A stretch of DNA of 64,000 nt from an uncultured Tolumonas sp. (GTDB lineage Bacteria > Pseudomonadota > Gammaproteobacteria > Enterobacterales > Aeromonadaceae). Below the pieces are notes generated by a model. That model did no database searches. It worked only from the letters and a program-made list of their open reading frames with translations, and was not told the origin of the DNA. Below, piece after piece: positions 16,039 to 33,321 of this stretch. A program made the translations under genes and the position numbers. Positions within the stretch are counted from its first letter, which is position 1. The number at the start of each line of letters is the position of its first letter. The DNA is taken from contig NZ_OY782757.1 of assembly GCF_963678185.1 (NCBI RefSeq), positions 806,001 through 870,000 of the forward strand, written 5' to 3'.

Positions 16039-17016
16039 TTAGCCCCCGATAGATGCCAAATGTGGTGTGACACCGCTGTTCCCCTGATGCAGGAAATGGG
16101 TTTCACGCTTATGAGTTAAACCTTCCAGAATGCGCGTTTGTAATTCGGTGTGCTGGCTGTCATCTTGCAATAAATCACGTAACGCAACACCTTCTTCGCC
16201 AAACAGGCAAAGATGTAATTTACCGACCGCAGAGACACGCAGACGATTACAGCTGGCACAGAAATCTTTGCTATATGGCATGATGAGGCCGATCTGCCCC
16301 AGATAATCCGGGTGAGAAAACACTTCCGCCGGGCCGTCAGTTTGCCCTTTCGGCTGTTGTAACCAGCCTTCACGCAGCAAACGCATTTTGATCGGCAAAC
16401 CACTTTGATGATGTTTTTGGAAACGGGCATCCATCTCGCCAGTCTGCATTAATTCAATCAGGCGTAATTGAATAGGCTGGCCTTTGATCCAAAACAGGAA
16501 TTGCGAAAGTTCGTGATCATTGAGGTTTTTCAGCAGAACGGAATTAACTTTGATCCGGTGATAACCCGCCGCTTGCGCAGCTTCAATACCGTCCAAAATT
16601 TCCGCTAATTTGTTTTCACCGGTAATGAGCTGAAATTGACGCGGATCGAGACTGTCGATGCTGACATTTAGATCACGTAAACCGGCGTCATACCATTGTG
16701 ATGCGCGTTCTTTCAGACGATAGCCGTTAGTGGTCATTGCCACTTTCTCTATACCGGCAGTGTTGGCGACAGTTTCAATAATGGCGGGTAAATCGCGGCG
16801 CATCGACGGTTCACCACCGGTCAGGCGGATCTTTTTTACGCCCAATTCGGCAAAGCCGTGCACCACCCGTCGAATTTCATCGACAGTGAGGAATGATTTG
16901 CGTCCGTCGGGGCGATAGCCATCCGGCAGACAGTATGTGCAGCGAAAATTACATGCTTCGGTCAGCGACAGACGCAGGTAATGAAAGCGGCGGGAAAAAC
17001 CGTCTTCTAATATCAT
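16039..17016 (-). CDS. moaA: GTP 3',8-cyclase MoaA (radical SAM)
   Basis: 325 residues from ATG 17016, with AAAGGTG upstream; earlier in-frame ATGs would read into the upstream repeats. Radical SAM cluster motif C-NFR-C-TY-C near the N-terminus, then [16 protein letters not shown]. The second cluster is [18 protein letters not shown] near 250-270, and the protein ends in Gly-Gly as active MoaA requires. It catalyses the first step of molybdenum cofactor synthesis. First gene of the moa operon, separated from moeB by a 390-bp gap with palindromic repeats. Confidence 0.96.
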
Positions 17017-17170
17017 AAACACCTTTCCAAATTCGGGAGGCCAGTGCATTTCTTTACTGACCCTCGCAACATCGCTGCTGCTCGGCGGCATCGCCTTATC
17101 GGTGACTTAGGCGATGACGCTCGGTGTGTTTTTGTCTTCCGGAAGATCCAACTTTTATTCTGCGACCGAC

Positions 17171-19416: not shown

Positions 19417-19746
19417 TTATATCGCTTTTAACCAGATCTCTTCACCGCGCACTTCCACCGGCCAGCTTTTCACGGCAATGTCAGGGGTATCTAAACAACG
19501 CCCGTCTGTCAGTGCAAAATGCTGTTTATACAGGGGAGACGCGACACATAATTCACCCTGAATATCACCAACGATGCCACGGGATAACACAAACGCCTCA
19601 CCCAGCGGGTCCCAGTTATCCAGTGCATACACAGACGGTATTTCATTAGGGATATAGAACACCGCAACCTGTTTGCCGGCTACCAAAGCAGTACGGCCAG
19701 AATGTTCCACCAGATCGTTTACTTCACAGATTTTCTGCCAGCTCAT
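19417..19746 (-). CDS. nirD: Nitrite reductase (NADH) small subunit NirD
   Basis: 109 residues with the Rieske-like fold of NirD (EVNDLVEHSGRTALVAGKQVAVFY, CVASPLYKQHFALTDGRC). The Cys-x-His pairs of true Rieske proteins are absent, as is normal for NirD, so no cluster is expected. It completes the NADH-dependent cytoplasmic nitrite reductase. Its start overlaps the nirB stop by 4 bp. Confidence 0.94.
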   Translation of the reverse strand: MSWQKICEVNDLVEHSGRTALVAGKQVAVFYIPNEIPSVYALDNWDPLGEAFVLSRGIVGDIQGELCVASPLYKQHFALTDGRCLDTPDIAVKSWPVEVRGEEIWLKAI

Positions 19747-22262
19747 ACCAGCTCCTTAATCAAAATAAGTTCTTCATCTTGTTTCGGAATTGCCTGCTCA
19801 CGAACGATTTGACGCGGTGGCATATAGGCTTCATCACTGTTTACGAATGGAGCAAAACGCTTCATTTTTTCTGGGTCTTCCAGCGTGGTTTTCCATTCAC
19901 ACTGGTAGGTATTAATCAGGTGCTGCATCTGGTCTTCCAGTTCAGCGGTAATACCCAGTTTGTCGTCGATAATGACCGATTTCAGGTAGTCCAGACCGCC
20001 TTCCATGTTTTCCATCCACACGGAAGTACGTTGCAAACGGTCACCGGTGCGGATGTAGAACACCATCAGACGATCGATGTATTTGATTAAGTCTTCATCG
20101 CTTAAATCAGTGGCGAACAGATCGGCATGGCGTGGGCGCATCCCGCCGTTACCACAGACATACAAGTTCCAGCCTTTTTCAGTGGCAATCACACCAAAAT
20201 CTTTGCTTTGTGCTTCGGCGCATTCACGGGTGCAACCGGAAACCGCAAATTTGATTTTGTGTGGCGCACGAATGCCTTTGTAGCGATTCTCTAATGTGAC
20301 CGCCATACCAGCAGAATCTTTCACGCCGTAACGACACCAAGTCGAACCGACACACGATTTCACAGTACGCAGTGATTTGCCGTAGGCATGACCGGTTTCA
20401 AAACCCGCATCAACCAGTTCTTGCCAAATCACAGGCAGTTGATCGACACGGGCACCGAACAAATCAACACGCTGACCACCGGTGATCTTGGTGTAGAGGT
20501 TATATTTCTTCGCCACCTGACCCAGCACAATCAATTTGTCAGGGGTAATTTCACCACCGGCAATACGTGGCACGATGGAATAAGTGCCGTCTTTTTGCAG
20601 GTTACCGAGGAACGCATCATTGGTGTCCTGCAAAGGCTGGTGCTTTTTTTCCAGAATATGGTCATTCCACAGTGACGCCATGATGGAACCAATCATGGGT
20701 TTGCAGACATCACAACCGCGACCCTGACCGTGTTTGCTTAACACTTGCTCAAAACTTTTCAGCTCACCCACACGGATCTGGTGGAACAGTTCCTGACGGG
20801 TAAACGCGAAGTGTTCACAAACGTGATTGTTCGCTTCCATGCCCAACTCGGTCAGCGTTTGATCGACAACCTGTTTCAGCAGGTTTGAACAACCACCACA
20901 ACCAGTGCCCGCTTTAGTGCAAGATTTCACATCGGCAACGGTGTGATTACCGGCTTTAACGGCCGCCACCACATCACCCTTAGTGACGTTATGGCAAGAA
21001 CAGATGGTCGCCGTATCTGGCAGCGCCAGTGAAGTAGGTTTCGCACTACCACCTTCCGGTAACAGCAAAGACAGAGCTGGATCTGGCAGTTCCATCTTGT
21101 TCAGATAGAATTGCAGCAGTTGGTCGTAATCGCTGTTATCGCCAATCAGGATCGCACCGAGCAGAAATTTGCCAGTTTCATCAGTAACCAGCTTTTTGTA
21201 GATGCCAGACGGACGATCCAGCAGCAGTAATTCTTGTGAGCCGGCAGTGGCGGCATGGCTGTCACCGATAGCGCCCACATCAACACCCATCAGCTTCAGC
21301 TTGGTGCTCATATCCGCACCTTTGAAGCGGGTTTCACCACCCAACAGTGTGCTGACCGCAGAGCGGGCCATCTGATAGCCTGGTGCCACCAGACCAAAAA
21401 TCTTACCGGACCACAGCGCACACTCGCCGATAGCCAGAATATCCGGATGCGAAGTTACGCACTGTTCATCAATGGTGATACCACCGCGCTCACCCACCGT
21501 CAGGCCGGCCTGACGGGCCAGACGATCTTCTGGACGAATACCAGCAGAGAACAGGATCACATCGGTTTCGAGATGGGTACCGTCTTTAAACATCATGCGG
21601 TGCAGCGCGCCTTCCCCATCGACGATTTTGTCGGTGGCGGTATCGACGTGCACTTTAACGCCCAAGCTACCAATTTTGTTTTTCAGCAGATCACCGGCTA
21701 CCGGATCAAGCTGCACCGGCATCAGGCGTGGTGCGAATTCAATGACGTGCGTTTCCAGACCGAGCAGACGCAACGCGTTAGCCGCTTCCAGCCCCAGCAA
21801 ACCGCCACCAACAACCACACCGGTGCGGCCACCAGCACAGGCATCACGGATTTCATCCAGGTCAGCCAGCGTGCGATAGACATAGCAACCTTTACGCTCG
21901 TGACCAGGAATAGGTGGAACGAACGGATAAGAACCGGTTGCCAATACCATTTTGTCAAAAACATAAGATTCGCCCTGTTCGGAAGTAATAGTCTTGTTTG
22001 CCAGATCCAGCGACTCGGCTTTACAGCTCAGGATCAGTGACACGCCTTTTTCGGCATACCATTCCGGATCAGCCATCTGCAGCTCTTTCGGTGCACGACC
22101 GCCGAAAACTTCGGACAGATGTACCCGGTCATAGGCGCTATCAGGCTCTGCACCTAATACGGTGACTTCGAATTGTTCCAGACCACCCGCATTGACCAGT
22201 TGTTCAACAAAATGGTGGCCAACCATGCCGTTACCGACGACTAACAGACGTTGCTTGCTCAT
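19743..22262 (-). CDS. nirB: Assimilatory nitrite reductase (NADH) large subunit NirB
   Basis: 839 residues. Domains in order: FAD/NAD(H) pyridine nucleotide oxidoreductase (about 1-410, VVGNGMVGHHF, VVVGGGLLGLEAANAL), BFD-like [2Fe-2S] domain (about 420-475, CSCHNVTKGDV, GTGCGGC), then the ferredoxin-like and siroheme/[4Fe-4S] domains. Cluster cysteines are seen in SCVGSTWCRYG and SGCTRECAEAQ. It reduces nitrite to ammonium with NADH in the cytosol and needs siroheme, for which cobA lies upstream. RBS AAGGAAC. Transcription starts at a sigma-54-like site and passes a conditional terminator. Confidence 0.96.
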   Translation of the reverse strand: MSKQRLLVVGNGMVGHHFVEQLVNAGGLEQFEVTVLGAEPDSAYDRVHLSEVFGGRAPKELQMADPEWYAEKGVSLILSCKAESLDLANKTITSEQGESYVFDKMVLATGSYPFVPPIPGHERKGCYVYRTLADLDEIRDACAGGRTGVVVGGGLLGLEAANALRLLGLETHVIEFAPRLMPVQLDPVAGDLLKNKIGSLGVKVHVDTATDKIVDGEGALHRMMFKDGTHLETDVILFSAGIRPEDRLARQAGLTVGERGGITIDEQCVTSHPDILAIGECALWSGKIFGLVAPGYQMARSAVSTLLGGETRFKGADMSTKLKLMGVDVGAIGDSHAATAGSQELLLLDRPSGIYKKLVTDETGKFLLGAILIGDNSDYDQLLQFYLNKMELPDPALSLLLPEGGSAKPTSLALPDTATICSCHNVTKGDVVAAVKAGNHTVADVKSCTKAGTGCGGCSNLLKQVVDQTLTELGMEANNHVCEHFAFTRQELFHQIRVGELKSFEQVLSKHGQGRGCDVCKPMIGSIMASLWNDHILEKKHQPLQDTNDAFLGNLQKDGTYSIVPRIAGGEITPDKLIVLGQVAKKYNLYTKITGGQRVDLFGARVDQLPVIWQELVDAGFETGHAYGKSLRTVKSCVGSTWCRYGVKDSAGMAVTLENRYKGIRAPHKIKFAVSGCTRECAEAQSKDFGVIATEKGWNLYVCGNGGMRPRHADLFATDLSDEDLIKYIDRLMVFYIRTGDRLQRTSVWMENMEGGLDYLKSVIIDDKLGITAELEDQMQHLINTYQCEWKTTLEDPEKMKRFAPFVNSDEAYMPPRQIVREQAIPKQDEELILIKELV

Positions 22263-22383
22263 GTTTATGTTCCTTAAACTACGGCACTATTTTTGATTGG
22301 ATCGATTCCAATTAAATCCGTTTTAGTGGTTCTAGCACTCTTCACGCGGGTTACTGTGTCAGCACCTGCTGGACGTAATGCTC

Positions 22384-22476
22384 AAAAAAAACGCCTCACT
22401 GGAATTAACCAGTGAGGCGTCATTGCCTGAGTGACCAAATTGTTGGAAAGCCAAGTTCAGGGAAGACAGGTTGGCT
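22384..22476 (-). promoter_or_regulatory. ANTAR-type leader with conditional terminator upstream of nirB
   Basis: On the minus strand, stem AGGC/GCCT with hexaloop AATGAC (22415-22428) overlaps the left arm of a strong terminator. The terminator stem ACGCCTCACTGG/CCAGTGAGGCGT (22391-22420) is followed by eight Ts. Forming the hexaloop hairpin excludes the terminator, as in nitrate leaders controlled by ANTAR proteins. The upstream hairpin has stem AGCCAA/TTGGCT (22449-22476) with a 16-base loop instead of a hexaloop. The nasT product is the likely antiterminator. Confidence 0.8.
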
Positions 22477-22499
22477 AATCCGTTAACAATTTAGATACA

Positions 22500-22516
22500 T
22501 TCAGCTTTCATGCCAG
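22500..22516 (-). promoter_or_regulatory. Sigma-54-like promoter for nirB
   Basis: On the minus strand CTGGCATGAAAGCTGAA has GG and GA ten bases apart. It closely matches the nrtA copy and resembles the sigma-54 consensus TGGCACG-N4-TTGCA, with a weak -12 half. The position fits a start just before the ANTAR leader. Confidence 0.55.
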
Positions 22517-22605
22517 TTTTAAAATTCCTGTAAAACATAGCTTTTAGATGTATTTTTAAGGGTTTTAATGGTTTTTCATGATTCACGACGGTGCAATTGC
22601 ACCAG

Positions 22606-22637
22606 ATCAGTCAACCAGCATGGCGAAGATTCTGTGA
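22606..22637 (-). pseudogene. Fossil of the 3' end of nasT
   Basis: Just after the kinase/phosphatase stop, the minus strand reads codons for R-I-F-A-M-L-V-D-stop. The real nasT ends K-I-L-A-T-L-V-D-stop. The match continues past the stop through a GGTGC-N4-GCACC dyad, the sigma-54-like site and the ANTAR leader. The whole stretch 22263-22637 is therefore a diverged copy of the nasT-nrtA junction (29118-29360). Confidence 0.75.
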
Positions 22638-22638
22638 C

Positions 22639-24366
22639 CTAGCCTGCATTAAAAATGCGATAGAACATCTGGATCAGATTTCCCAGTAACAAAGCCAAGG
22701 CTGTCAGTTTCCAGAATAAAACCGGGTTTTGTTCCAATATAGGCCGATGCTGTAAATCGGCTTCCAGCGCCCGGTTCGGTGCCGAAATATCAGTAAAAAA
22801 CTCGGAAAATGCCTCATAACGATTTTCCGGATCTGGCTGCAGTGTTTTTTGTAATGCGGCATCAACCCAGACCGGCAGATCTTTGCGGAAGTATTTGCCC
22901 GGCGTATAGGTCAATTCGGCATAACTGTTTAATTTGCCCGCGCGCGGCGAGCGTTCTTTATAAGGCAGCTTGCCAACCAGCATCTCATAGACAATGACGC
23001 CTAACGAAAACAGATCAGAACGCATGGTGCCAGATAATCCCATCAGATATTCCGGTGCAATGTAATTCACACTCCCCTGCGGGATCGACTTATCCAGCGG
23101 GGAATTCATCTCCTGACTGCCCGCGATCAGCACGGTACCAAAATCGAGGATCTTGACCTTGCCCTCAGTGGTGAGCATGATATTTTCCGGTTTTAGATCC
23201 TGATGCACCATGTCGTTTCGCTGAAAGGCGCGTAATCCGGCGATGATCTGTTTGGTGATCTCTCTGACCTCGGTTAAGGCTGGCTCAGGGTGTTCATTGA
23301 TCCAGGTTCTTAAATCACAGCCAACAATGTATTCGCCCAGATAATACATAAACTGTTTCGGCCGCAACGGCTTATAGGTTTTCATCACGTTCGGATGATC
23401 AATCGTCAAGCCGACCCACTCTTCACGGATAAAACCATCCAGATACAGCAGATCTTCGGTGAAATATTCCGATGGCGCTTTGAGCACAAACAGCGCGTCG
23501 GTTTCTATGTCTCGGACTTTATACATATGGCTGCGCGTACCGCTGAAGATAATATCCAGCACTTCATAACCATCGATTTTATTCCCCACCTGCAACACCG
23601 GTGGAATCGGCAATTGGGTCAACCGCTGCTGGGTTTCATCCAGTGTTTCATTTGGCAGCGAATCGACGGCGAGAATCAGCACGGTGAGGTTATCGTCGCT
23701 GGCTTTGTATAACGCCAGATCCACCAGTGCTTTGGCTTGTGTATCCAGATCATGCTCACGAGCAAGAATATCGCGCATCACCTCCGGCGTCAGCACACCA
23801 TGCACGCCATCGGAGGTGAGAATGATGCGATCCCCTTCATTGAGCAGGCGCTTTAAATAATCCACTTCCAGATGGGAATCAGCCCCCAGCGCACGCGTCA
23901 GGTGCGTGCGTTTGCCGCTGGTCGCGACATGATCGGTAGTCAATTTTTCGAGTTGTTGATTGCTGTAAAGATAGATGCGGGTGTCGCCAACATGAAACGC
24001 ATGCAGCGTGGACGATTTAATCACAGCAGCGGTGAAGGTCGTCAGCATGCTGTCTTTGACGCCATGATTTTGCTGATTTTTCTGATACAGCCAACGGTTC
24101 AAGCTGGTAATTACTTTGGAAGCACTGGTGCTAACACTCCAGTTCGGTGAGGTGCTTAGATAATCATTGATGAAGCTGGTGACGGCAGTCTGGCTGGCAA
24201 TGTGCGAGTCTTCACAACTGCTGACGCCATCGGCAATCACGGCCACTACCCCTTTATAGTCCAGCTCATGATGCTCAGGGATCTTAACGGCAAACGCATC
24301 CTGATTGATGGCTTTTTGCCCAGCAATTGAATATCCACCAACCCGAACCTGAAGGGATTTTGCCAT
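22639..24366 (-). CDS. Fused PP2C-type phosphatase and Ser/Thr protein kinase, membrane-anchored
   Basis: 575 residues. Residues about 1-240 are a PP2C phosphatase (GQKAINQDAF, VIADGVSS, FHVGDTRIYLY, ILTSDGVHG, DNLTVLIL). About 255-525 are a Hanks-type kinase with ATP lysine in FVLKAP, catalytic loop VHQDLKPEN, DFG and APE. The glycine-rich loop is poor (FSGTRSHMYKV), and Gln replaces Arg before the catalytic Asp, so it is a non-RD kinase. A single helix at about 550-570 anchors it. Genes of this form recur beside assimilatory nitrate genes in other proteobacteria, but I know of no established function. It lies between the nitrate carrier and nirB, after a strong hairpin. Confidence 0.88.
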   Translation of the reverse strand: MAKSLQVRVGGYSIAGQKAINQDAFAVKIPEHHELDYKGVVAVIADGVSSCEDSHIASQTAVTSFINDYLSTSPNWSVSTSASKVITSLNRWLYQKNQQNHGVKDSMLTTFTAAVIKSSTLHAFHVGDTRIYLYSNQQLEKLTTDHVATSGKRTHLTRALGADSHLEVDYLKRLLNEGDRIILTSDGVHGVLTPEVMRDILAREHDLDTQAKALVDLALYKASDDNLTVLILAVDSLPNETLDETQQRLTQLPIPPVLQVGNKIDGYEVLDIIFSGTRSHMYKVRDIETDALFVLKAPSEYFTEDLLYLDGFIREEWVGLTIDHPNVMKTYKPLRPKQFMYYLGEYIVGCDLRTWINEHPEPALTEVREITKQIIAGLRAFQRNDMVHQDLKPENIMLTTEGKVKILDFGTVLIAGSQEMNSPLDKSIPQGSVNYIAPEYLMGLSGTMRSDLFSLGVIVYEMLVGKLPYKERSPRAGKLNSYAELTYTPGKYFRKDLPVWVDAALQKTLQPDPENRYEAFSEFFTDISAPNRALEADLQHRPILEQNPVLFWKLTALALLLGNLIQMFYRIFNAG

Positions 24367-29117: not shown

Positions 29118-29128
29118 TCCATTGCTCC

Positions 29129-29207
29129 AAAAAAAAACGCCTCACTGGTTAATTCCAGTGAGGCGTCATTGCCTGAGTTACCAAATTGTAGGAAGCCGTC
29201 GTTGGCT
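29129..29207 (-). promoter_or_regulatory. Two-hexaloop ANTAR leader with conditional terminator upstream of nrtA
   Basis: On the minus strand the RNA contains AGCC-AACGAC-GGCT (29194-29207) and AGGC-AATGAC-GCCT (29161-29174). These are two short stems with six-base loops carrying A at position 1 and G at position 4, which is the known ANTAR recognition motif. The second stem shares its 3' half with the terminator stem ACGCCTCACTGG/CCAGTGAGGCGT (29137-29166), followed by nine Ts. The arrangement predicts antitermination by an ANTAR protein. nasT is the gene immediately upstream. Confidence 0.9.
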
Positions 29208-29230
29208 GATCCGTTTACAAATTTGATACA

Positions 29231-29247
29231 TTCAGCTTTCGTGCCAA
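29231..29247 (-). promoter_or_regulatory. Sigma-54-like promoter for nrtA
   Basis: Minus strand TTGGCACGAAAGCTGAA. The -24 part TTGGCACG is a perfect sigma-54 match; the -12 part is CTGAA instead of TTGCA. It lies about 25 bases upstream of the first hexaloop stem and matches the nirB and nasA copies in spacing. Confidence 0.6.
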
Positions 29248-29335
29248 TCTGAAAAGCCCTTAAAAGATGGCTTTTTTATGCATTTTTAACAATTTTATAA
29301 GAAGTTATGTCTCAAATCGGTGCATTCGCACCGGA

Positions 29336-29896
29336 TCAGTCAACCAGCGTGGCGAGAATTTTGCGAGCAAGATCACCCATAGTCTGGTGATTCTTCATTG
29401 CGGTAGAACGCATTACTTTATAAGCGGTCTCTTCATCTAAGCCCTGCACTTTCATTAAACGCGCTTTAGCTTGCTGCACCAGCTTGTTCTCTTCCAACCG
29501 TTTGGAGAGATCATCGACCGCCAGTTGCTGCTTGCGCATCACGTCTTGTTGCAGACGCGCTTGTTTCAGCCAGCTTTCTACCGGCTCTTTCTCTTCGACC
29601 CGATGCGGCACCAGCGTGACGCCCGATTCCAGTAATACTTGTTGTTGGTTTTCAGGCAAATTTTCCATAAACACCACCACTGGCAGCCCTTGGCTGGCCA
29701 AGGCCGATGCCACTAAGCGCCATTCGGCAGGTAAACGCCGGCAATCAATCATCACCCCATGAATACCACCCGGCGGGTGCATAGGGTCGATTTGCCGGAC
29801 TAAATAAGGCTCATGACCATAACGACTTAATAACAAACCCAGGCGGTTTGCCTGGGCTATATCGTCGCTATAAATCAGGATCTTCGAATAACTCAT
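29336..29896 (-). CDS. nasT: NasT-like ANTAR-domain antitermination regulator
   Basis: 186 residues. The N-terminal receiver-like domain (about 1-120) has a conserved acidic pair (YSDD) and an Asp at the phospho-acceptor position (VMIDCRR). A coiled coil lies at about 110-140. The C-terminal ANTAR domain (KRLEENKLVQQAKARLMKVQGLDEETAYKVMRSTAM) binds RNA. It should stabilise the hexaloop hairpins in the nasA, nrtA and nirB leaders when nitrate is present. In other bacteria NasT is held inactive by NasS, which is not encoded in this window. Transcribed after cobA. Confidence 0.9.
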   Translation of the reverse strand: MSYSKILIYSDDIAQANRLGLLLSRYGHEPYLVRQIDPMHPPGGIHGVMIDCRRLPAEWRLVASALASQGLPVVVFMENLPENQQQVLLESGVTLVPHRVEEKEPVESWLKQARLQQDVMRKQQLAVDDLSKRLEENKLVQQAKARLMKVQGLDEETAYKVMRSTAMKNHQTMGDLARKILATLVD

Positions 29897-30702: not shown

Positions 30703-33321
30703 CTAAACTTCACTAACGCTGGTGTGTTTATGCAGCAATTTCTTCAATTCCACGACACAGGTGCCGCAATTCGTACCGCAACGCAGCAAACTTTGCAGGC
30801 CACTTAATTCAGAAATACCCTGCTCGCCAATTGCATCGACGATCTGTTTCTCACTGACGCGGAAACAAGAGCAAATCATGCGGCTATCGCCCGCCAGCGC
30901 TTGTTCCAACGTGGTAGACAGCGCTGTGCTGTTCATCGGCAGACCGAGTAAGCCCGCCAGCAGATCGATATTTACCTGCTGATGTGTGGTGCTCACCAGC
31001 AATAAACCAATGATACGGCCTTGATTCAGTTTTACCGCCAGCCAGCCGCCTTTCAGCGGTAAGCGTAACCACCGGCCTTGTTGCGCCAGCTGGAACCAGA
31101 CTTGTTCAGCTGTACGTGTTTCATCAGTCAGGCGGCGACATTCCCCCGCATCGAGCGGACGACGCGCCCACCAGCTTACTTCTAATTCCGGTTCATGCTG
31201 CCCGACCCAGAGGCCATGCCATTTCACATCAACTGCTTCAGCTACCACTTCAGTTTGCTTAAATTGCGGTTGACCAGAAACCGCATCGGTAACTGGCGCC
31301 ACCAAGCGATTGACCCCCGAGCAGGATGAAAAATCATCTGACCAGTGCATCGGCATAAACGCTTCACCATCGCGCAGGCCATCATCACGCCCCAGTAAGG
31401 TCATCACCGAACCTTGCAGAGAATTAATGCGGATCAGTGCGCCTTCGGTAAACCCACTGTTCAGAATGGTTTGATGGTTTACATACACTTTTGGCAGCGG
31501 TTCTGTTTCCATTAAACGCGGCAGATGACCGGTACGCGTCATGGTGTGCCATTGATCACGCAGACGACCGGTATTTAACAACCAGCTGCCTTCCTGACGT
31601 TCTGCTTTACGTTTGAGTATTGGCTCTTGCGGGGTTACCGGCACCAGATTGGCGCAGCCATTGAAGGTCGAGAACGCACCATCGGTAAATAGGCGGCGGC
31701 TTTCTACTGTCTTGCCCGCAGGCAACGGCCACTGGCGCGGTGTGAATTGTTCATACTCATCATCGGTCATCGTTGCCAACGCCGAGATATCAAACTGACG
31801 ATCGCTATTTTCAAAACCAGACAACTCAGCATGTTCACGGAAAATATCGGCAGTGTTGTCGTAATTGAATGCATCGGCAAAACCCAGACGTTTACCTAAT
31901 TGGGTTAACGCCCACCAATCTGGTTTTGCCTCGCCCGGCGCTTGCGTAAACGCACGCTGACGTGTCATGCAGCGTTCAGAATTGGTGACTGTGCCGGAAC
32001 GTTCGCCCCAGCCAGCCGCAGGTAATAACAGATGTGCAAACTGCGCGGTATCAGTTTTCGGTGTCATTTCAGACACCACCAGAAATTCACATTTCGCCAG
32101 CGCTTCGCGCACCTGAACCGAGTCGGGCAGCGACACCGCCGGGTTCGTCGCAATGACCCACAATGCGCGGATCTTGCCCTCACCCAGCGCTTTAAACATA
32201 TCCACGGCTTTTAAGCCCGGTTTACGGGCAATGTTTGGCGCATTCCAGAAACGAGCCACGCGATCGCAGTTTTCATCGTTGAACGTCATGTGTGAGGCTA
32301 ACTGCGTTGCCAGCCCGCCCACTTCACGGCCACCCATAGCGTTTGGCTGTCCGGTCATCGAAAATGGTGATGCACCCGGCTTGCCGATACGCCCCGTCAA
32401 CAGATGCGGGTTAATAATGCTATTGCCTTTGTCAGTGCCCTGATTCGATTGATTGATGCCCTGACAAAACAGCGTCACTGCTTTTTCATTCTCACCAAAC
32501 CAACGGTAGAAGGTCTGCAATTCGCTGATGGTTAATCCGCATTTTTCCGCGACCTTTGCCAGCTCATATTCTGGCGCCATAACCAGTGCATGCAGTTCAC
32601 TAAAGCCATTCACATGATTTTCGATATAAACGTTATCAACCAGATCGTGTTCCAGCAGATAACGACTTAATCCGTTAAATAACCAAACATCGCTACCGGG
32701 GCGCACCGCTAAATGTAAATCGGCCTGCTCGGCGGTCATGGTTTTACGCGGGTCAATCACCACCATTTTCATTTCCGGACGACGTGCTCGCGCTTGCTGG
32801 ATACGGCGGAAGATCACCGGATGTGTCCACGCGGTATTCGCACCGGCAATGACCAGCAGATCCGCCAGTTCCAGATCGTCATAACAACCCGGCACCACGT
32901 CTTCACCAAACGCACGGCTGTGCGCCATCACCGCCGAAGACATACAAAGGCGGGAATTGGTATCAATATTTGCAGCCCCGATGAAGCCTTTCATCAGCTT
33001 GTTAGCCACATAATAATCTTCAGTGAGCAGCTGACCGGACACATAAAAAGCGACCGATTCCGGCCCGGTTTCCGCAATGATCTGGCTAAAACGTGTTGCC
33101 ATTTCATCGAGTGCAGTATCCCAATCTACCTGTTGACCATGTAATCGCGGGTATAACAGACGATTAGGAAACGCCAGCGTTTCCAGCAAACTACCGCCTT
33201 TGACACACAACGCCCCGCTGTTTGCAGGATGCTCTGTATCACCTGTTAATGTTTTGGCATCATCTACCGTGATCCCACAACCGACGCCACAATAAGTGCA
33301 ACTGGTATGAACACGACTCAT
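30703..33321 (-). CDS. nasA: Assimilatory nitrate reductase catalytic subunit
   Basis: 872 residues. The N-terminal [4Fe-4S] motif uses C8, C11, C15 and C39. The Mo-bisMGD domain follows (MSSAVMAHSRAFGEDVVPGCYDD-type region, GINQSNQGTDKGN, GQPNAMGGREVGG), then the molydopterin dinucleotide-binding domain from about 560. A C-terminal BFD-like [2Fe-2S] domain is near 810-865 (CSCFRVSEKQIV, CGTNCGTC). It reduces nitrate to nitrite in the cytosol. No flavin electron-transfer subunit (NasB/NasC of Klebsiella) is nearby, so the C-terminal cluster may receive electrons from another donor. Confidence 0.94.
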   Translation of the reverse strand: MSRVHTSCTYCGVGCGITVDDAKTLTGDTEHPANSGALCVKGGSLLETLAFPNRLLYPRLHGQQVDWDTALDEMATRFSQIIAETGPESVAFYVSGQLLTEDYYVANKLMKGFIGAANIDTNSRLCMSSAVMAHSRAFGEDVVPGCYDDLELADLLVIAGANTAWTHPVIFRRIQQARARRPEMKMVVIDPRKTMTAEQADLHLAVRPGSDVWLFNGLSRYLLEHDLVDNVYIENHVNGFSELHALVMAPEYELAKVAEKCGLTISELQTFYRWFGENEKAVTLFCQGINQSNQGTDKGNSIINPHLLTGRIGKPGASPFSMTGQPNAMGGREVGGLATQLASHMTFNDENCDRVARFWNAPNIARKPGLKAVDMFKALGEGKIRALWVIATNPAVSLPDSVQVREALAKCEFLVVSEMTPKTDTAQFAHLLLPAAGWGERSGTVTNSERCMTRQRAFTQAPGEAKPDWWALTQLGKRLGFADAFNYDNTADIFREHAELSGFENSDRQFDISALATMTDDEYEQFTPRQWPLPAGKTVESRRLFTDGAFSTFNGCANLVPVTPQEPILKRKAERQEGSWLLNTGRLRDQWHTMTRTGHLPRLMETEPLPKVYVNHQTILNSGFTEGALIRINSLQGSVMTLLGRDDGLRDGEAFMPMHWSDDFSSCSGVNRLVAPVTDAVSGQPQFKQTEVVAEAVDVKWHGLWVGQHEPELEVSWWARRPLDAGECRRLTDETRTAEQVWFQLAQQGRWLRLPLKGGWLAVKLNQGRIIGLLLVSTTHQQVNIDLLAGLLGLPMNSTALSTTLEQALAGDSRMICSCFRVSEKQIVDAIGEQGISELSGLQSLLRCGTNCGTCVVELKKLLHKHTSVSEV

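Follow-up and report, generated by a model that had tools for sequence, protein, structure and literature searches.

An old copy of the nasT-nrtA control region, with the end of nasT attached, as a likely second promoter and attenuator before nirB in Tolumonas

We found that in the nitrate assimilation cluster of Tolumonas the segment that begins in the last codons of nasT and ends at the nrtA leader terminator occurs a second time, in front of nirB. Judging from sequence comparisons, the copy (22379-22637 of the window, by which we mean the whole stretch of 64,000 nucleotides analysed) is old and was made in the Tolumonas lineage, in the direction from nasT/nrtA to nirB; these comparisons show that a duplication took place, in which direction, how old it is in relation to the species, and which parts were kept or lost. 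Taken as a whole, the segment probably equips nirBD with a second promoter and attenuator. The window was placed in Tolumonas by its nasT, which matches named Tolumonas records including T. osonensis DSM 22975, and ten genus mates were compared with it (G001-G010, T. osonensis being G004). The cluster lies on the minus strand in the order nasA, cobA, nasT, leader, nrtA, nrtB, nrtC, narK, PP2C/kinase gene, second leader, nirB, nirD, in which cobA, nrtB, nrtC and nirD are what we take these genes to be from their context. The name nasT was given from the ANTAR domain and the gene context. It is the sole ANTAR match in the genome, and a NasT with ANTAR domain (PF03861) beside nas genes is the arrangement of a NasS-NasT system. 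A NasS sensor, expected to be NrtA-like and cytoplasmic, was not recognised in the genome by a PF13379 (NMT1_2) search: the two matches are NrtA and a 358-aa protein resembling an ABC transporter binding protein, and both begin signal-peptide-like as judged by eye. Elsewhere in the window a Molybdenum cofactor riboswitch (RF01055, 88.2 bits) was detected at 17004-17138 on the minus strand, overlapping the 5' end of a moaA-like reading frame. Coordinates of the features are collected in Table 1.

Table 1. Features of the nirB-side copy and of the nasT-nrtA parent region (window positions)
Feature	Position	Strand	Basis or remark
nasA	30703-33321	-	
nasT (ANTAR), donor of the copied tail	29336-29896	-	PF03861
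Parent dyad GGTGCGAATGCACC	29319-29332	-	
Parent promoter-like box TGGCACGAAAGCTGAA	29231-29246	-	
Parent P1 hairpin, hexaloop AACGAC at 29198-29203	29181-29225	-	
Parent P2 hairpin AGGC-AATGAC-GCCT	29161-29174	-	
Parent terminator with T run	29129-29167	-	fold
PP2C/protein kinase fusion, gene 5' of the copy	22639-24366	-	stop codon 22639-22641
nasT 3'-end remnant (RIFAMLVD-stop), directly after the PP2C/kinase stop codon	22607-22637	-	alignment and tail matches
Candidate upstream element: dyad GGTGCAATTGCACC 22590-22603, NtrC-like TTGACTGATCTGGTGCA 22598-22614	22590-22614	-	~89 bp before the TGGCA box
Promoter-like box TGGCATGAAAGCTGAA of the copy	22500-22515	-	sigma-54-like -24; -12 non-canonical
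P1 stem of the copy; loop region 22453-22472 enlarged, without A1/G4 hexaloop	22435-22494	-	fold
P2 hairpin of the copy, AGGC-AATGAC-GCCT, A1/G4 hexaloop, overlaps terminator 5' arm	22415-22428	-	
Intrinsic terminator of the copy with T run	22384-22421	-	fold and separate detection
nirB-side spacer, 116 bases, no part of the copy	22263-22378	-	beyond the alignment edge
nirB, gene 3' of the copy	19743-22262	-	TIGR02374

The minus strand of 22263-22760 was aligned with that of 29118-29480. The best local alignment joins 22379-22637 to 29123-29366 with a score of 213, while 500 dinucleotide shuffles averaged 20 and never exceeded 33. The part made up of the nasT tail and the dyad by itself scored 58 against a maximum of 29 in 2000 shuffles, so the similarity 5' of the terminator, for which the first-pass annotation had proposed this alignment as a check, is above chance. 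That annotation had taken all of 22263-22637 as copied; this is right for 22379-22637, and the nirB-proximal remainder falls outside the alignment. A match was present in 11 of 11 Tolumonas genomes. A search for further copies yielded no third one in the window genome, its third row being the terminator palindrome read on the other strand. From the eleven genomes we recovered nine nrtA leaders (parents) and twelve daughters, namely nine nirB leaders and three leaders lying 5' of narK (G001, G006 and G007); owing to fragmented contigs the nrtA leader is missing for G006 and G010 and the nirB leader for G001.

The end of nasT can be read directly behind the kinase stop codon, as had been noticed at first sight: positions 22633-22607 on the minus strand give AGA ATC TTC GCC ATG CTG GTT GAC TGA (RIFAMLVD-stop), and nasT itself ends in AAA ATT CTC GCC ACG CTG GTT GAC TGA (KILATLVD-stop). 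The core of this tail, CTGGTTGACTGA, is exact in 17 of the 21 copies and shows one or two changes in the remaining four. In the window copy the 18 nt 5' of the core agree with the nasT tails of four genomes at 12-14 of 18 positions. The corresponding 18 nt in the nirB copies of eight genomes match the G000 nasT tail at 13-14 of 18, and against the tails from three further genomes the figure is 10-14 of 18 (binomial probability, uncorrected, 8e-5 for 13 matches and 1e-5 for 14). The remnant is longer in G004, where 21 of 30 nt match the G000 nasT tail and the frame is kept (DLTHKNFAMLVD-stop against DLARKILATLVD-stop). This longer fossil was seen in 8 of the 12 daughter copies, which are related and therefore non-independent cases. 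The core without the longer fossil is found in the three narK copies (4-7 of 18) and in the G008 nirB copy (4-6 of 18). As no nasT fossil extends beyond the core in G008, it is the leader tree that points to a common origin of this copy, which sits there on a very long branch.

Why the end of a regulator gene should travel with a promoter is suggested by the DNA next to it. A (T/C)GGTGC element lies about 89 bp 5' of the promoter-like box, and in Tolumonas it begins three bases past the nasT stop codon, so that copying the whole promoter had to take nasT codons along. Counted from the TGGCA box, the element stands at -86 to -90 in 19 of the 21 Tolumonas copies and in 8 of the 13 loci of the outgroup genus g4. 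Exceptions in Tolumonas are the nirB copy of G002 at 98, which has a 10-nt insertion, and the nrtA copy of G004, whose box was missed by the search pattern; in four other g4 loci the distance is 102-125, L085 is without a box match, and in the two g5 loci TGGTGC stands at 92 and 111 (L083) and at 111 (L138). The innermost part of the fossil, CTGGTTGACTGAT, is 97% conserved in the daughters vs 78% for the 20 nt before it. Together with the near-fixed distance of the adjoining element to the box, this suggests, on grounds of conservation, that part of the nasT remnant is a working DNA site, and the innermost fossil may not be a passive relic.

As to the protein that might bind there, the NtrC enhancer consensus is TGCACY-N5-GGTGCA, and TTGACTGATCTGGTGCA agrees with it at 10 of 12 positions, a score equalled by 2 of 200 shuffles. 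The same score is reached at one site in eight of the nine nirB copies (0-2 of 200 shuffles as good), and both G008 copies reach it as well but at a different site. The nrtA copies attain only 9 of 12 in seven of eight scored, which 14-19 of 200 shuffles do likewise, so NtrC is to be taken as a candidate. Genes for ntrC and rpoN are present in the genome. Promoters of the sigma-54 type have TGGCAC at -24 and TTGC at -12; the box TGGCAYGAAAGCTGAA matches at -24, with TGGCAY conserved, and is incomplete at -12, having TGAA where TTGC is canonical. No sigma-70-type promoter was found in 22200-22700, where shuffled sequences gave a mean of 1.0.

Both leaders of the window fold as P1 plus terminator, and as P1 plus P2 if the 3' arm of the terminator is omitted. 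In all nine nrtA leaders and all twelve nirB and narK copies (21/21), P2 has an A1/G4 hexaloop and overlaps an intrinsic terminator. It is at P1 that parents and daughters part: an A1/G4 hexaloop (AACGAC or AACGGC) is found in 9 of 9 nrtA leaders vs 0 of 12 daughters at this position, a figure that stands for one or few events, since the daughters share ancestry. The idea that the whole control module had been copied thus holds for the nasT 3' end, the upstream element, the box, the P1 stem, P2 and the terminator, and fails for the P1 hexaloop. The P1 helices of the daughters are paired in 96-97% of cells; covariation is slight, with both-side changes at two pairs in the parents and at one pair in the daughters. 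A weak, A-U-closed A1/G4 hexaloop (e.g. GTTA-ACGGAT-TAGC) can form 43-60 nt 5' of P2 in ten of the twelve daughters and in one of the nine parents. Four of the twelve daughters have another hexaloop hairpin, located about 150 nt 5' of P2 and ahead of the predicted start. As predicted structures, these weak alternatives would count against reading the change at P1 as a simple loss.

Some further details of these hairpins may be added. The enlarged P1 loop looks, by eye, like the P1 3' arm repeated in tandem and since decayed, and is common to six genomes, an example being CTTCCCAACAACTTGG beside CTTTCCAACAATTTGG in G005 and G010. The terminator loops of the two window leaders are reverse-complementary (TTAATT at 22403-22408 in the nirB copy vs AATTAA at 29149-29154 in the nrtA copy), and the loop looks as if flipped inside its stem.

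Leaders of genus g4 help to judge what the change at P1 could mean. All 13 g4 leaders are without an A1/G4 hexaloop at the P1 position, and each is the only leader seen in its cluster; upstream, hexaloop matches amounted to one three-pair hit each in L087 and L089. Loss of the P1 hexaloop therefore need not weaken control, and a P2-only leader may be workable. A different hairpin stands out in the nasT-nrtA gaps of g4 (L081, L084-L095), namely a C:G-closed A1/G4 hexaloop, e.g. CTGC-AACGAG-GCAG, 3' of the terminator; it lies 14-33 nt past the T run in 13 of 13 loci, which are related, vs 196 of 3900 shuffles. A hairpin of this kind was considered as a stand-in for P1 in the nirB copies and rejected, as none of the nine has a C:G-closed one; it is found in 3 of 3 narK copies.

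The lengths and sequences of the P1 loops vary among the daughters (4 or 5 nt, or about 16 in the six genomes with the enlarged loop), and G003 manages without the copy. Both observations would fit a mere passenger, that is, a neutral duplicate drifting to loss, with nirB read through from upstream genes and the loss at P1 being decay. We regard this as unlikely: in the daughters the upstream element, the promoter box, the P1 stems, P2 and the terminator are conserved at 95-98%, above the spacer (87.5%) and the upstream flank (78%). The 5' arm AGGC of P2 and the loop positions A1 and G4 are even invariant in 12 of 12. Strong terminators, moreover, persist, which would be costly under mere readthrough.

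With the copy read as a second promoter and attenuator, the following working can be proposed, in which the promoter type, the activator, the binding of NasT and a differing response are predictions. The segment from the last nasT codons through the terminator of the nrtA leader was set before nirB. When nitrogen is limiting, an activator bound at the upstream element would drive initiation at each sigma-54-like box, and the RNA would terminate before nrtA or nirB unless NasT stabilises P2. NasT would grip P1 and P2 at nrtA and P2 alone at nirB, and from the loss of the P1 hexaloop its control at nirB may be expected to be weaker than at nrtA, or different. Going further, copying followed by loss of the P1 hexaloop could yield ANTAR switches that work through P2 alone and have a higher threshold for NasT, and hence graded expression, uptake first and nitrite reductase later; this is a tentative idea, possible but rather doubtful.

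For the direction of copying we turned to the family. A relative of NasT is found in 28 of 75 family genomes (9 Tolumonas, 17 of genus g4 and 2 of g5), and the outgroup clusters examined comprise 13 of the 17 g4 genomes (G045, G047, G057 and G068 were left out) and both g5 genomes, 15 loci altogether. In every one of them nrtA, nrtB, nrtC and nirB follow in that order with a P2-plus-terminator leader 5' of nrtA, and no leader was seen before nirB, the region of related genomes which the first-pass annotation had singled out for comparison. A T-run terminator occurs in 0 of the 14 outgroup nrtC-nirB gaps scanned, the 15th gap being just 58 nt long; 7 of the 14 hold a weak three-pair hexaloop match. 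A covariance model trained on the genus was run under strict filters on the 75 genomes of the family. Outside Tolumonas it hit 10 genomes, each at a single place, before nrtA. In Tolumonas it gave no match outside this cluster, rows on the opposite strand being the same leaders.

A nasT remnant before nirB would look identical if the ancestral order had been nasT-leader-nirB and if nrtABC, narK and the kinase gene had been inserted later, the remnant marking the old site of nasT with no copying involved. Such a history is very improbable given the outgroup loci, in all 15 of which the leader stands at nrtA, nirB follows nrtC and no second leader was seen, and given that parent and daughters sort by position. 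In the leader tree, from which the P1 loop columns were left out and which was rooted at the midpoint, every nrtA copy falls on one side of a branch with support 92/97, which is below the starred level of the tool. Copies group by position, not by genome, with the reservation that the nine nirB copies alone do not form one clade (3 changes) and that the G002 nirB copy stands weakly on the nrtA side. Identity between nrtA and nirB copies is 0.63-0.83 within a genome and 0.65-0.84 across genomes; as the former does not exceed the latter, there is no sign of recent conversion. Recurrent gene conversion, which would keep both regions alike so that their resemblance neither dated nor placed the duplication, could account for how closely the copies agree in terminator and P2, but it is largely refuted by these identities, by the nrtA copies lying on one side of the branch and by a P1 difference that is genus-wide, and we give it hardly any credence. 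Loci of rpoB were gathered for a species tree and left unused, G003 having none and G008 three matches.

The duplication from nasT/nrtA to nirB was apparently followed by another. The narK copies have a median identity of 0.93 to the nirB copies vs 0.79 to the nrtA copies and share their 3' flank with the nirB copy, and we infer from this that the third copy was derived from the nirB copy. In the simplest history there would have been one leader at first, then a copy before nirB, then the arrival of narK and the kinase gene upstream of it, and finally a third copy before narK. Two genomes bear on the early steps. G003 is without the second leader and has about 14 nt between nrtC and nirB; it may have kept the first state or lost the rest, the gene trees (cobA-nasT, nrtABC, nirB, narK-kinase) disagreeing as to whether it is ancestral or a case of loss. 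In G008 narK and kinase are absent and a leader separates nrtC from nirB; a terminator-like hairpin after nrtC makes this leader and nirB look like a unit of their own. Two contigs of G008, which is a metagenome bin, carry three rpoB-family matches between them (C129 and C34), which may point to a mixed bin or to one with errors. The pair of narK and kinase, which in this window sits within the nas cluster, is a recurrent one: narK lies directly before the PP2C/kinase gene in 11 of 11 loci inspected in the order (L140-L150), the kinase being present in 54 other genomes. Nothing in these loci showed the leader as part of a narK-kinase cassette, nirB being absent from the flank of about 1.5 kb in 11 of 11.

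Several smaller observations concern the surroundings of narK. In G007 (L037, 9616-12308) LysR-type, SnoaL-like and OYE-like genes, named by eye, are inserted between nrtC and the third leader. A GAGC-AAAGGC-GCTC hexaloop lies just 5' of narK in the nrtC-narK gap of G005, G009 and G010 (L034 6335-6510, L036 6098-6260, L045 1839-2000), and the same hexaloop occurs 3' of the narK leader in G001, G006 and G007 (GTTC in G007). In G005 and G009 a long terminator-like hairpin overlaps the hexaloop before narK with its 5' arm, and the two perhaps form a leader of narK's own.

The first-pass annotation had seen here a regulon growing by duplication of its control module. The further copy at narK agrees with this, with the restriction that unrelated genes were not recruited: the target genes already belonged to this cluster, and what took place is a re-equipping of operon segments. 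We see in it a directional case, within a single genus, of one antitermination regulator gaining several operon segments, in which promoter, upstream element and leader were duplicated as one piece and took the last part of the regulator gene with them, as the upstream element adjoins that gene. A limited search of the open-access literature gave nothing direct on duplicated ANTAR leaders, on propagation or duplication of promoters or on nitrate assimilation in Tolumonas.

Repeated ANTAR leaders within one cluster are already known from the eut genes of Enterococcus faecalis, where, like here, several ANTAR-controlled (EutV) terminators are spread across one gene cluster; unlike the nirB copy, the eut leaders are said to have both hexaloops, and the accessible part of that report does not mention a regulator-gene remnant (PMC3369931). 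The NasS-NasT system of Paracoccus denitrificans shares with ours a NasT-family ANTAR protein, nas genes and leader hairpins, and its NtrC input at nasT would be a further likeness, NtrC being a candidate here, but it has a NasS sensor, of which none was recognised here, and the available text describes one leader, at nasA (PMC5424462). The nasF/NasR system of Klebsiella oxytoca likewise serves nitrate assimilation genes and has P1, P2 and a terminator overlapping P2; it differs in that NasR has a NIT domain and in that one leader is described in the portions consulted (PMC3369936, PMC7496416). Its A1/G4 hexaloops are shared by the parent copy at nrtA, while the nirB copy is without the P1 hexaloop that nasF needs, A1 and G4 of the P1 loop being reported there as essential (PMC3369936). 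In eutP a change of either loop is stated to lower induction (PMC3369931), and NasR is given as binding a single P2 hairpin RNA at about 12 uM vs about 1 uM for P1P2 (PMC7496416). Set beside these systems, the parent and daughter pairs of Tolumonas, with the P1 loop present in one and lost in the other, offer a natural test of whether ANTAR proteins require both hairpins.
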